A program made the translations under genes and the position numbers. Below are positions 27,626 through 49,500 of a stretch of DNA of 64,000 nt, piece by piece (position 1 is the stretch's first letter; each line of letters starts with the position of its first letter). The notes under the pieces are model-generated. The model ran no database searches. It had not been told where the DNA came from and worked only from the letters and a program-made list of their open reading frames with translations. Location: positions 455,861-519,860 of the forward strand of contig NZ_LMRT01000014.1 of assembly GCF_001426225.1 (NCBI RefSeq), read 5' to 3'. Source of the DNA: Allobosea sp. Leaf344 (GTDB lineage: Bacteria > Pseudomonadota > Alphaproteobacteria > Rhizobiales > Beijerinckiaceae).

Positions 27626-28228
27626 ATGAGCGACGTGCTCGTGACCCTCGGCGAAGAGATCAAGGCGGCGCTGCCGGGCGCCGTCACGGACGCCGTCGTC
27701 GCCTATGGCGAATTGACGATCCTGGCCGAGGCGGCTGCGATCCCGGGCGTCCTGGAGACGCTGAGGGACGATCCGCGCTTCCGCTTCGTCAACTTCACCG
27801 ACATCGCCGGCGCCGATTACCCCGGCCGTGAGAAGCGTTTCGACGTCGTCTACCATCTGCTGTCGCCGCGCCATAACCGCCGTATCCGGGTGAAGGTCCA
27901 GACCGACGAGGCGACACCGGTCCCCTCGGTGATCGACGTCTTCCCGGCGGCGAACTGGTACGAGCGCGAGGCCTATGATTTCTACGGCATCCTCTTCTCG
28001 AACCACCCGGATCTGCGCCGCATCCTCACCGATTACGGCTTCGAGGGCTATCCGCTGCGCAAGGACTTCCCGCTGACCGGCTATGTCGAAGTCCGCTATG
28101 ACGACGAGCAGAAGCGCGTCGTCTACGAGCCGGTCAGGCTCAATCAGGAATTCCGGAATTTTGATTTCTTGAGCCCTTGGGAAGGCACGGATTATGTCCT
28201 TCCGGGCGATGAAAAAGCGAAGGTCTGA
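27626..28228 (+). CDS. nuoC: NADH-quinone oxidoreductase subunit C
   Basis: This 200-residue subunit belongs to the hydrophilic connecting arm of complex I. The 30-kDa-subunit signature [19 protein letters not shown] is visible at about residue 110, with [20 protein letters not shown] after it. The ATG at 27626 was chosen over an upstream in-frame start at 27569. nuoC and nuoD are separate here, not fused as in enterobacteria. Its stop (28226-28228) directly abuts the inverted repeat of the inserted cassette. Confidence 0.96.
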
Positions 28229-28257
28229 GGCAGTGGGCAGTCGTCAGTCGGCAGTCG
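28229..28257 (+). repeat. Left inverted-repeat arm of the nuoC-nuoD cassette
   Basis: The arm consists of near-identical heptamers CAGTGGG, CAGTCGT, CAGTCGG, CAGTCGG. Its reverse complement is found at 28639-28667 with two mismatches. In RNA the two arms would make a stem of about 29 bp enclosing the cassette gene. Confidence 0.85.
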
Positions 28258-28278
28258 GGACGCGACCGGGGTTGGGCG

Positions 28279-28638
28279 ATGAGCATCCGATCGTACCGGG
28301 ATCTGCGCGTCTGGCAGGAGGCGATGGCCTTGGCCGAATTGGTCTACCGGGTTACGAAGCTGTTTCCGCGGGACGAGATGTTCGGACTGACCTCGCAGAT
28401 GCGCAGAGCCTGCGTCTCGATCCCAGCCAATATCGCCGAGGGCTATGGTCGCGAGAGTGCGGGAGCCTATCAGCAGTTTCTGCGCATCGCGCAGGGTTCG
28501 GTCAAGGAGCTCGAGACTCACGCGCTGATCGCATGTCGGGTCGGTATGGTCGGCGAGGAGGAAACGGCCGGTCTGCTGTCCAAGACGGAGGCTGTCGGCA
28601 AGATGCTGCGCGCGCTCATTCGCTCTCTGGACGTCTAG
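28279..28638 (+). CDS. Four-helix-bundle protein, 23S rRNA intervening-sequence (S23) family
   Basis: This 119-residue helical protein matches the family encoded within 23S rRNA intervening sequences and related to the Avd accessory protein of diversity-generating retroelements. Signatures are YRDLRVWQEAM, FGLTSQMRRACVSIPANIAE (within residues 36-56) and GSVKELETHALIA. Basic residues on the bundle suggest nucleic-acid binding. The ATG at 28279 has only a poor ribosome site. It has no known part in complex I, and its place inside the nuo operon together with the flanking inverted repeat suggests an inserted unit. Function unproven for the whole family. Confidence 0.88.
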   Translation: MSIRSYRDLRVWQEAMALAELVYRVTKLFPRDEMFGLTSQMRRACVSIPANIAEGYGRESAGAYQQFLRIAQGSVKELETHALIACRVGMVGEEETAGLLSKTEAVGKMLRALIRSLDV

Positions 28639-28667
28639 CGACTGCCGACTGCCGACTGCCCATTGCC
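28639..28667 (-). repeat. Right inverted-repeat arm of the nuoC-nuoD cassette
   Basis: Heptamers CGACTGC, CGACTGC, CGACTGC, CCATTGC follow the cassette gene stop without a gap. The nuoD ribosome-site region (AGAGG at 28668-28672) begins directly after the arm, so folding of the stem could influence nuoD translation. Confidence 0.85.
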
Positions 28668-28683: not shown

Positions 28684-29874
28684 ATGACCGAACACAACAT
28701 CCGCAATTTCAGCATCAATTTCGGGCCCCAGCACCCGGCTGCGCATGGCGTGCTGCGCCTGGTGCTCGAACTCGACGGCGAGATCGTCGAGCGGGTCGAT
28801 CCGCATATCGGCCTGCTGCATCGCGGCACCGAGAAGCTGATCGAGGCGAAGACCTATCTGCAGGCGCTGCCCTATTTCGACCGGCTCGACTATGTCGCGC
28901 CGATGAACCAGGAGCATGCCTGGTGCCTCGCGGTCGAGAAGCTGATGGGCGTGAGCGTCCCGCGCCGCGGCCAGCTGATCCGCGTGCTCTATTCCGAGAT
29001 CGGCCGCATCCTCTCCCATCTCCTCAACGTCACCACCCAGGCGATGGATGTCGGCGCGCTGACGCCGCCGCTCTGGGGGTTCGAGGAGCGCGAAAAGCTG
29101 ATGGTGTTCTATGAGCGCGCCTCCGGCTCGCGCATGCACGCCGCCTATTTCCGGCCCGGCGGCGTCCATCAGGATCTGCCGACCTCGCTGATCCACGACA
29201 TCGCGGAATGGTGCGAGCCCTTCCTGAAGGTCTGCGACGATCTCGAGGGGCTGCTGACCGACAACCGCATCTTCAAGCAGCGTAATGTCGATATCGGCGT
29301 GGTCGATCTCGATACCTGCTGGAAATGGGGGTTTTCGGGGGTGATGGTGCGCGGCTCCGGCGCACCCTGGGATCTGCGCAAATCGCAGCCCTATGAATGC
29401 TATGAGGAGATGGATTTCGACATCCCGATCGGCAAGAACGGCGATTGCTACGACCGCTACTGCATCCGCATGGAAGAGATGCGGCAATCGGTGCGCATCA
29501 TGCAGCAATGCTGCGCCAAGCTGCTGGGGCCGGATGGCGGCGGGCCGATCTCGGCGCTGGACGGCAAGATGGTGCCGCCCAAACGCGGCGAGATGAAGCG
29601 CTCGATGGAAGCGCTGATCCACCATTTCAAGCTCTATACCGAGGGCTTCAAGGTCCCGGAGGGCGAGGTCTACGCCGCGGTCGAGGCGCCCAAGGGCGAA
29701 TTCGGCGTCTATCTCGTCTCGGACGGCACCAACAAGCCCTATCGCGTCAAGCTCAAGGCCCCGGGCTTCGCCCATCTCCAGGCGATGGACTTCATGTGCC
29801 GCAAGCACATGCTGGCAGACGTCTCCGCCATCCTCGGCTCGCTCGACATCGTTTTCGGGGAGGTCGACCGGTGA
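28684..29874 (+). CDS. nuoD: NADH-quinone oxidoreductase subunit D
   Basis: This 396-residue 49-kDa-type subunit forms the quinone-binding cavity with NuoB. It opens with [20 protein letters not shown], the quinone-site loop, and shows [13 protein letters not shown] and the C-terminal [13 protein letters not shown] at 28663 lies inside the cassette repeat and was rejected in favour of the ATG at 28684. The 810-base stretch after it is uninterrupted. Downstream lies a second heptamer palindrome before nuoE. Confidence 0.97.
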
Positions 29875-29887
29875 CGCTGTCGCGCGC

Positions 29888-30010
29888 GTGGCGAGTGGCG
29901 AATGGCGAATGGGCTGTGATAGCCCTGCCGCGGCTCGCCGTGTCGCTGCCAAGGCCGTGCACGCCGCTCACCCCCGTTCGCCATTCGCCACTCGCCACTC
30001 GCCATTCGCC
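29888..30010 (+). repeat. Heptamer-array palindrome between nuoD and nuoE
   Basis: The left arm (29888-29911) is built of GCGAGTG and GCGAATG heptamers, and its reverse complement stands at 29975-29998 with one mismatch in 24. The right array continues to 30010 with further CACTCGC/CATTCGC units, five in all. The 63-nt loop (29912-29974) has no gene and contains a small GGCT/AGCC hairpin. It fills nearly the whole nuoD-nuoE spacer. The design equals that of the cassette repeat but with another heptamer sequence. Confidence 0.8.
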
Positions 30011-36165: not shown

Positions 36166-36171
36166 GGCGGC

Positions 36172-36225
36172 GCGTTGCGACAAGCGAATGGCGGGTGAAA
36201 CCTCTGCATTCGCCACTCGCAACGC
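36172..36225 (+). repeat. Heptamer palindrome between nuoI and nuoJ
   Basis: The left arm 36172-36190 pairs with 36207-36225; 16 of 19 positions match around a 16-nt loop. Units are the same as in the nuoD-nuoE palindrome (GCGAATG, CATTCGC, CACTCGC), and another CACTCGC unit follows at about 36228-36234. It begins 7 nt after the nuoI stop. The spacer to nuoJ is 157 nt, the longest in the second half of the operon. Confidence 0.65.
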
Positions 36226-36322
36226 GCCACTCGCCCGCTTATAGACGCACCCAACGGCGCCCGGCCGAGAGTCGGACGCGTTTCAACGAGGGCCACCCGC
36301 GAGGGTGGAAGGGCTGACCGAG

Positions 36323-46561: not shown

Positions 46562-49500
46562 ATGAATACATCATTTGCGCGCGGGGTAACACTCATTGCT
46601 TTGCTGACGCAAATTATCGTCATGGGCGATCCCGCTTTTGCCGATCCGCCCGGCTCGAGCGATCCCGCGGACTGGAAGACGCCGGAATTCCTGAAGGATT
46701 GGGGCCTGGCCGCGATGCGCGCCGAATATGCCTATGCGCGCGGCATCACCGGCAAGGGCGTGCTGATCGGCAGCGTCGACTCCGGCGCCCTCACATACCA
46801 TCCCGACCTGCGCGACAATGTCCGGCCGGTGACGACGAGCGGTATCTATGCCGCCGATGGCTGGAAATACTCTCCGACGAACGGGACCTATGAGGGCGGA
46901 ACGGCGTTTTCCGTGCCCGGCAGCTATATCCGTGGCGTCAACGACGATCACGGCACGCATGTCGCCGGCATCATGGTCGCCGACCGCAACGGCAGCGGCA
47001 TGCATGGCGTCGCCTTCGGCGCGACGCTGCTTCAGAGCAACACCAACGGCACCGACGCCTATCGCTACGGCGTCAATGCCGACTACAACTACTTCAAGGC
47101 GGCCTATGGCAATCTGGCGGCGAGAGGTGTCCGGGCCATCAATTCGAGCTGGGGCAACCCGCCGGTCGGCGACAATTACGACAGTCTCGCGGGGCTCACC
47201 GACGCCTTCCTGCCGCTGACACGGACGAAGACGTGGCTCGACGCGGCGATGGAGACCCGCAAGAGCGGCGCCGTCATGGTCTTCGCCGGCGGCAATGCGG
47301 GTGCCGACAACCCCTCGACCCGCGCCTTCGTTCCCTATTTCCGTCCCGATCTCGAAGGCGGCTGGCTGGCCGTCGCGGCCCATAAGCAGAATGGCCAGAT
47401 GACGGAGTTCAACCAATGCGGCATGGCCAAATGGTGGTGCATCACGGCGCCCGGCCACAACATCAATTCGACGGCGGCCAGCGTCGACTACAAGAATCTC
47501 AGCGGCACCTCGATGGCGGCGCCGCATGCGACCGGAGCTCTGGCGCTGGTGATGGAGCGCTTCCCCTATATGACGGGCGAGCAGGCGCTCTACACCATGC
47601 TCACCTCCGCCGATAAATTCGGCACCGGCGCGCAGATCCAGGTCCCTGACCGCACGGCGGGCTGGGGGACCATCAATCTGCGGCGGGCGATGGACGGGCC
47701 CGGCCAGTTCTTCGGCCATTTCACGCCGCATATCGGCGCCGGCGGGGTCGATGTCTACGCCAACAATATTTCCGACGTCGCCATCCGCAGCCGCGAGGCC
47801 GACGACAAGGCCGAGCAGAAGAATCTGGCGGCCCGCTCCAACAGCGCCCGCGCCGCGCTGGTCGACAGCGCTCTCGCCGCCCGGGCTTCGGCCATGGCCA
47901 CGCGCGGGCTCGACCCTCTGACGGGCGAGACCTATGTCGGCAGCCTCGAAAAGCGCGGCGACGGCACCCTGGTCCTGGCCGGCCGCAACAGCTACAGCGG
48001 CAGCACCTGGGTGCGCGGCGGGCAGCTCGTCCTGAAGGGGTCCATCACCTCCGACACCACGGTCGACGGGTCCGGCATCGGTCTGTCCTTCGTCAACCCG
48101 ACGACGCGCTACCAGGATGTCGGGACGCAAGGCGGATCCTTCGTGGTCGAGACCGGCGCGACCGCGGCCGCCGTCACGGTGCGCAAGGGCGGTTCGGCGA
48201 CGATCGGGGGCCGGGCCGGCAAAGTCACGGCCGAGACCGGCGGCTCCGTCGTCGTCGACGGCCGTGTCGGCGATGTCACCGCCAGTGGCGGCAGCGCCGT
48301 GATCAACGGCCAGTCGGGCGACGTGATCGCCAGTGCGGGCGGCGCGGTCGAGATCGGCGGGCGCTCGGGCGACGTCACCGCCAGCGGCGGCAGCGCGATC
48401 ATCAACGGCCGGTCGGACACGGTGACCGCGACGGCCGGAGGTTCGGTGCTGATCGGCGGGCGAGCCGGCAACGTCACCGCCACCGGTGGCAGCGCGGTGA
48501 TCAACGGTCAGGCCGGTGACGTGAGCGCCAGCGCGGGCGGCTCGGTGCTGGTCGGCGGGCAGGTCGGAAACGTCGCCGCCGGTGGCGGCGGCACCGCCAC
48601 GATCACCGGACGCGCCGGGGCCGTGACCGCGAGCGCGGGCGGCAAGGCGACCATCGACGGGCGGGCCGGCGACGTCGCGGCCAATGGCGGCAGCGCCATC
48701 ATCAACGGTGTCGCCGGCAACGTCACCGCGAGCGCGGGCGGCTCGGCGCTGATCGGTGGGCAGGTCGGGGCCGTCGCCGCCGATTCCGGCGCCATGGCGG
48801 TCATCAACGGCCGGGCCGGGGACGTGACGATCGGCGCCGCCGGCCTGCTCTCGGGGTCCGGCACGCTGGGCTCGCTCGCCGCTCTGTCCGGCTCGGTGAT
48901 CGCGCCGGGCAATTCGATCGGCACCTTGACCGTCGGCGGGCCCGTCGGCTTCGCCGCGGGCGCGACCTATCGCGTCGAGATCGCGCGCGACGGCCGCGGC
49001 GACCGCATCGCTACCGCCGGCGCGGCGAGCCTCAGCGGCGGCCTCGTCACCGTGTCGATCGAGAACAGCCCGGCGCTGCTCAACCTGCACCAGGCCTGGT
49101 CCGTGCTCGGCCGGCGCTACACCATCCTCTCAGCCGAGGGCGGGGTCCGCGGCAGGTTCGACGGCGCGACGCCTGGCTTCGTCTTCCTCAATCCCATCCT
49201 CGACTATACCGGCCAGAGCGTCGGGCTGACCATGGAGCGCAGCGAGACCAGCTTCATCTCGGTCGGGCAGAGCGGCAATCAGCGCCGTGCCGGCAGCGCG
49301 GTCGAGTCGCTCGGGCCGGGCAACCCCGTCTTCGAAGCGGTGCTGACGCTGCCCGACGCGGCCTCGGCCCGCACCGCTTTCCGCGCGCTCGCAGACGAGA
49401 CCTCGGCCACGGTCACGAGCAGCCAGGCGGCGACGGCGGTCTTCATCCGCGAGACATTGTCCGGCCGCAGCCGCTGGTCGAGCAGCTCAGGCGGGTCCGG

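Follow-up and report, generated by a model that had tools for sequence, protein, structure and literature searches.

Structure of the unit between nuoC and nuoD

What is a gene of the 23S rRNA-intervening-sequence type doing within the nuo operon of strain Leaf344, and is the unit that holds it an isolated insertion or one member of a wider class? All coordinates refer to the window, the whole stretch of 64,000 nt that was analyzed, and all features described lie on the + strand. The unit comprised 439 bp between nuoC (27626 to 28228, with its stop codon ending at 28228) and nuoD (28684 to 29874), the start of which lay 16 nt past the right arm. The arms (28229 to 28257 and 28639 to 28667) were 29 nt each, 381 nt apart, and complementary at 27/29 positions (93%), the right arm being the inverted copy. 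The first base of the left arm adjoined the nuoC TGA, and the first base of the right arm adjoined the TAG of the cassette gene. Both arms were composed of tandem 7-mers, GGCAGTN in the inward direction, with a period of 7 according to Tandem Repeats Finder. The inverted repeat scored 23 (+1/-2 per base), compared with at most 13 when this stretch was dinucleotide-shuffled 1,000 times. The open reading frame at 28279 to 28638 encoded a 119-residue 23S rRNA-intervening sequence protein / four helix bundle protein, with profile matches to PF05635 (E=3e-37) and NF008911 (E=3.9e-50). It was the only PF05635 gene of the Leaf344 genome, and among the matches listed its nearest named relative was from Bosea sp. 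OK403 (79%), which makes Bosea the probable genus. The cassette architecture is firm, and the sequence-only reading that had described it, including the arm starts directly after the two stop codons and the protein family, was borne out in each of these respects.

The strong RNA stem expected from the arms was likewise recovered in the predicted fold of the cassette (-234.9 kcal/mol, z = -4.16), in which the arms were paired and which none of 100 shuffles equaled. The unit resembled several known systems in part. It shared with rRNA intervening sequences (IVSs) an S23/PF05635 gene and terminal inverted repeats able to form a long stem, and differed from them in lying between nuoC and nuoD instead of in 23S rRNA. 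Like the heptameric intergenic repeats, it has 7-nt units arranged in tandem between genes. The PF05635 gene was the sole gene between the arms, with no transposase inside the cassette, as had been stated before, which separates it from transposons and insertion sequences. Avd, the accessory protein of diversity-generating retroelements, is a four-helix bundle that forms a pentamer. The proposed kinship to Avd stood as a distant profile similarity (bAvd, E=1.1e-5; DivGenRetAVD, E=0.0034), together with the four-helix bundle and the five chains of solved PF05635 relatives; unlike Avd systems, the Leaf344 genome gave no match in a profile search for reverse transcriptase (PF00078).

Heptamer arms around PF05635 genes in many phyla

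PF05635 loci were drawn from three sources: a family sample (matches in 22/199 genomes), a phylum sample (matches in 62/398 genomes, with 21 fragmentary or below-cut-off rows left out), and 80 named contigs from many phyla, the best 80 of 577 listed, each of them retrieved with the motif NIAEG[YH]GR. Arms were defined as an inverted repeat with a score of at least 13 within 220 nt on both sides of the gene. Four loci were left out of the resulting set of 173 with enough flank, namely, L052 (best score, 10) and L056 (none), both below the cut-off, L058 (the second half of L055), and L126 (with too little flank). Arms were found at 141/173 loci, compared with 5 of 664 shifted windows; at a score of 17, the numbers were 106 and 0, respectively. 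When repeated records were removed, 134 of 165 distinct loci were armed. Heptamer arms are thus general to the PF05635 family across many phyla, and the earlier proposal that they mark the ends of the unit held. Among the best 80 of the 577 named contigs, arms were present in Pseudomonadota (45/48 loci), Cyanobacteriota (11/11), Planctomycetota (7/8), Bacteroidota (3/3), Acidobacteriota (2/3), Bacillota (2/2), Chloroflexota (1/1), Thermodesulfobacteriota (1/1), and one unassigned contig (1/1), with Spirochaetota and Chlorobiota at 0/1 each. The 31/165 distinct loci scoring below 13 were concentrated in the groups coded f53 (1/6 armed), f40 (1/4 armed), and f38 (10/17 armed). Genes with an internal stop retained arms (L053 and L134). 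In a further set from a viral collection, arms were found in 20/27, a count that includes several near-duplicates and some contigs that may be host DNA.

Among lags 4 to 12, the repeat period was strongly raised at lag 7 alone (16.4/21 matches versus 9.7), while lag 8 attained 18/21 matches in 13 loci. Of 139 armed loci, repeats included, 121 had 7-nt units, 16 had 8-nt units, and 2 had 5-nt units. On the inward arm strand, G made up 43% and C 11%, with G exceeding C in 137/139. The 46 distinct heptamers shared a weak circular consensus of approximately TAG[GT][GC]A[GA], carrying 5.27 bits compared with 4.2 to 4.6 in 10 shuffled sets. The 8-nt units belonged to a mostly coherent protein group from Mesorhizobium and relatives in the Brucellaceae (L101, L118, L122, L129, L164, L181, L192, and others). 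In the available parts of five papers (PMC4692102, PMC4990558, PMC10053308, PMC11270868, and PMC4679880), from a literature scope without preprints and with few subscription papers, PF05635 genes in general were not linked to heptamer arrays; within the same scope, PF05635 genes at nuoC-nuoD were not reported.

Location at nuoC-nuoD and at stop codons

Of the 178 PF05635 loci, 56 were in nuo operons, 54 of them beside nuoC (49 and 47, respectively, of 168 distinct loci); one of those counted beside nuoC (L044) was on a contig ending before nuoD. The two exceptions were between nuoB and nuoC (L119) and between nuoA and nuoB (L210, from a Hydrogenophilaceae bacterium). Of the 22 genomes with a match in the family sample, 18 had a cassette beside nuoC, and this residence spanned many alphaproteobacterial families. 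Since 54/178 loci adjoined nuoC in many families, cassettes recur or persist at nuoC-nuoD, and the nuoC stop codon is a recurrent landing place. In 42 armed cases the arm started at -22 to +12 nt relative to the nuoC stop, with 41 at -10 to +12. Outside nuo, the outer arm end was no more than 15 nt from a stop codon (that of an open reading frame of at least 120 codons pointing at the arm) in 68/85 armed loci, compared with 72/1132 random positions, a lenient control given that intergenic inserts in compact genomes are often near stop codons.

Within the genus, the cassette was found in 3/61 genomes, in all three at nuoC-nuoD. The 41 junctions read comprised 3 with a cassette, 11 that were empty, and 27 with other inserts. 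The latter were armless in 27/27 cases, with a best score of 9 compared with 17 to 23 for the cassettes. These other inserts, present in 27/41 operons (junction loci, L240 to L279), were small genes, and the single one checked belonged to the GFA family (PF04828). The empty sites that the sequence-only reading had suggested looking for were therefore present, and copies also existed at other sites, so that relatives do not all carry the gene in one place. Its view of the unit as an inserted minimal element stood as far as empty sites and related cassettes elsewhere are concerned; the idea of an isolated insertion gave way to recurrent residence (47/168 distinct loci beside nuoC). The first interpretation is in this sense partly supported and is widened from one insertion to a general cassette class. 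Removal of the unit had been calculated to leave a 16-nt junction; the arithmetic was right, but the empty junctions of the genus consisted of the nuoC stop codon and 12 nt, followed by the nuoD ATG. Empty and filled junctions were too divergent for a target-site duplication or an exact insertion footprint to be read.

Whether the site is chosen through homology of the heptamers to the end of nuoC was also considered; this explanation was rejected, with heptamers of nuo loci matching empty nuoC ends no better than others (a 6/7-base match in 6/13 nuo-locus heptamers versus 19/46 other heptamers).

Exchange of cassettes between lineages

Cassette and flanks disagree, which shows that the cassette at nuoC-nuoD has been exchanged between lineages, whether inserted anew or recombined by way of the nuo flanks. 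For one pair within a single genus (L103 and L111), DNA identity was 92% in nuoC and 94% in nuoD, compared with 54% in the cassettes, which had different 7-mer arms. A second pair (L037 and L044) had 86% identity in the flank versus 60% in the cassette. The reverse was seen for L037 and L049, the cassettes of which were closer (84%) than nuoC (76%) and nuoD (80%). Similarly, the L112 cassette was nearest to L206 (83%, versus 60% to L160), whereas its nuoC was nearest to that of L160 (82% versus 78%). As judged by eye, the order of arm unit variants traveled with the cassette in L112/L206 and L037/L049. For 44 cassettes beside nuoC, a set that excluded L119, L210, 7 repeated records, and 3 rows for which no protein had been extracted, the distances of cassette protein and NuoC were correlated with a Mantel r of 0.44, above 2,000 permutations, and the nearest neighbors by the two proteins coincided in 9/44. 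In the protein tree the nuo cassettes were grouped, requiring 9 changes compared with about 45 in shuffled trees.

Two cyanobacterial loci (L217 and L234) had gene and arm sequence in common, with 83% identity over the gene, in differing surroundings, the L234 flank being partly masked. Nearly all other near-identical cassette pairs had their flanks in common, and moves to new sites are therefore rare. On Calothrix plasmids, both cassette copies were within one shared block, which gave no information on the boundaries of the unit.

Selection on the protein and its relation to the arms

The cassette protein is under purifying selection, with dN/dS of 0.04 to 0.17 in 14 pairs (dS exceeded 1 in three cassette pairs) and values similar to those of nuoC in 5 pairs. 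The solved relatives 2gsc and 2rld each contain five chains, and five chains would suit arms that contain roughly four to five units. The cassette protein probably binds the heptamer arms, as RNA or DNA. Nearest protein neighbors had the same arm class in 77/109 cases versus 20.6 when shuffled, many of these pairs being at orthologous sites; for nearest neighbors at different sites, the agreement was 41/109 versus 20.7, and below 62% protein identity it was 5/24. The 8-mer cassettes mostly grouped by protein, though some of the same genomes held 7-mer cassettes, and descent of the whole cassette also explains this grouping. A code relating protein to 7-mer may exist.

Copies inside 23S rRNA

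Five PF05635 loci from two genomes were embedded in 23S rRNA sequence, three in G072 (L051, L054, and L057) and two in G459 (L147 and L148). All had arms, composed of CAGTGAN and TCAGGGA units, and their proteins formed one clade in the protein tree. L147 and L148 were identical over 3.3 kb and represent two rRNA copies. The IVS of Coxiella burnetii, as described in the accessible part of PMC4990558, is similar to the Leaf344 cassette in protein family, stem-forming terminal inverted repeats, arm heptamers, and length (about 430 nt). It carries tandem GACAGAT heptamers, the number of which varies among strains, and a 28-bp stem, and it is cleaved by RNase III (PMC4990558). In contrast to 23S rRNA IVSs, the Leaf344 cassette separates two protein-coding genes within an operon, and its excision by RNase III would be by analogy. 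As part of the explanation favored below, the 23S rRNA IVSs that contain a PF05635 gene are likely to be the rRNA-resident members of the cassette class.

Explanations for the cassette

The 439-bp unit is best explained, with a probability of roughly 0.6 for the joint reading, as one of a widespread class of exchanged cassettes that would be freed from the transcript by RNase III and would have protein-bound arms. Such a cassette consists of a PF05635 gene between inverted tandem 7-mer, sometimes 8-mer, arms, placed at the stop codon of a neighboring gene. In the nuo transcript the arms would pair as a stem of about 29 bp, at which RNase III may cut; the cassette RNA would then be released and two functional messages would remain, making the insert tolerable. 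A stem removable from the transcript in this way would explain how the same kind of gene can reside inside rRNA or between nuoC and nuoD. The five-chain protein, in turn, may bind the heptamer arms and help the cassette and the arrays to persist or spread with host enzymes. Counting against a cassette element are the near-identical pairs with shared flanks, the unreadable insertion footprint, the 31/165 armless loci, the gene-less hairpins in 10/58 genus genomes that lack the gene, and the poor discrimination of GCGARTR arrays.

An alternative is an old resident: one arrival at nuoC-nuoD in some alphaproteobacterial ancestor, followed by many losses, with the alleles later shuffled between species by ordinary recombination through nuoC and nuoD and without a mobile element in the strict sense. 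The clustering of nuo cassettes in the protein tree (9 changes versus about 45) is compatible with one origin, and both the shared flanks of near copies and the purifying selection on the protein fit such a history. It accords poorly with the disagreement of cassette and flank, which is sharp at the arms in L103/L111, with cassettes at nuoA-nuoB, at nuoB-nuoC, in 23S rRNA, and at other sites, and with the patchy presence (3/61 genomes in the genus and 18/199 in the family sample). A single ancient entry is therefore regarded as unlikely, if still a serious contender.

That cassettes reside repeatedly at a single junction in a core operon, that the protein is under purifying selection, and that the predicted stem is stable could also be read as host regulation, in which stem and protein tune the NuoC:NuoD ratio and the arms serve for regulation instead of being element ends. 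This reading is improbable, considering that the cassette is missing from 58/61 genomes of the genus and that a like architecture occurs in rRNA and at unrelated genes of other phyla. An Avd-like protein might alternatively work with a reverse transcriptase encoded elsewhere, with the cassette RNA, which could be excised as a unit, being copied back into DNA. The weak profile similarity to bAvd and DivGenRetAVD noted above is in keeping with such a retroelement, as is the occurrence of PF05635 among diversity-generating retroelement gene sets in the part of PMC10053308 available. Yet PF00078 was found in 12/44 cassette genomes and not in Leaf344, so a genome need not encode a reverse transcriptase to hold the cassette. 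A vehicle with its own enzyme may exist, and movement by reverse transcription is very improbable.

Arrays and hairpins without a gene

The Leaf344 genome contained at least 9 further sites with facing GGCAGTN arrays and no gene, the loops of which were short and unrelated. Within the genus, GGCAGTN hairpins were found in 13/61 genomes, comprising 3/3 with the PF05635 gene and 10/58 without it; a reversed control pattern gave no matches in the 61 genomes. Because the loops are unlike each other and hairpins are present in 10/58 gene-free genomes, they do not represent plain copies of a single element. In one case (G204 C11:459569 versus G213 C1:3867240), the loop was constant between species and the arms were altered by whole units. 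The nuoI-nuoJ spacer held one conserved loop in 36/41 operons of the genus, the exceptions being a GGCAGTN hairpin in three genomes (G204, G225, and G232) and a GCGAATN hairpin in G213 and Leaf344, where it was worn (36166 to 36239). At nuoD-nuoE, where G204, G225, and G199 have a 1-nt overlap and no spacer, Leaf344 has a gene-less hairpin of another 7-mer, TGGCGAA (29884 to 30010).

Arrays outside the cassette's own arms were compared with the arm unit of the same genome. GGCARTN arrays of three units occurred in 17/17 genomes with that arm unit versus 5/28 others, GGGAWTC arrays in 2/2 versus 1/43, and 8-mer arrays in 5/6 genomes with an 8-mer cassette versus 2/30. GCGARTR arrays (9/10 versus 15/35) discriminated poorly and are widespread in the order. 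For this comparison, G297 was scored as matching through L123 (arm score, 12) and G059 through weak arms (score, 10); G437, with mixed arms, was entered as GCGAAT and classed otherwise in the arm-class comparison; and G368, the second cassette of which ends at a contig end, was counted among the 8-mer genomes. A very long uninterrupted GGGAATC array was seen in G523 (at least C1:326875 to 327487), accounting for most of the 253 pattern matches listed there.

REPIN- and MITE-type elements are short inverted-repeat units that encode no transposase and occur in many gene-less copies per genome. The Leaf344 system resembles these in its inverted-repeat units, gene-less copies, and lack of its own transposase, but differs in that the arms of cassette and hairpins are tandem 7-mers and the loops vary by site. 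Intergenic heptamer repeats have been described as GGGAATC in Xanthomonas, with many convergent inverted pairs, and as GGGGA(T/C)T in Nostoc (PMC4692102), and TAACTGA heptamers are known from Beggiatoaceae, cyanobacteria, and Bacteroidetes (PMC4679880). Like the Leaf344 arms, they are tandem 7-mers in intergenic regions; in contrast to the cassette, they are described in the accessible parts of both papers without a PF05635 gene between the arrays, and those in PMC4692102 as generally not associated with mobile elements.

It is tentatively suggested, with the odds against it, that heptamer arrays and PF05635 proteins belong together in a single mobile system of many phyla, one that lacks a transposase and includes the 23S IVSs and the Xanthomonas, cyanobacterial, and Beggiatoaceae heptamers. 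The five-chain protein would then recognize G-rich 7-mer arms, and gene-bearing cassettes and gene-less hairpins would both spread to gene ends via host enzymes. Two old puzzles, the origin of IVSs and the intergenic heptamer repeats, would thereby be linked to one protein family with solved structures. The heptamer-arm signature allows such cassettes to be listed, and a core respiratory operon holds a recurrent parking place for exchangeable ones. Elsewhere in the window, at 48251 to 48828, a tandem array showed periods of 48, 99, and 201 nt, perhaps within a repetitive protein gene.
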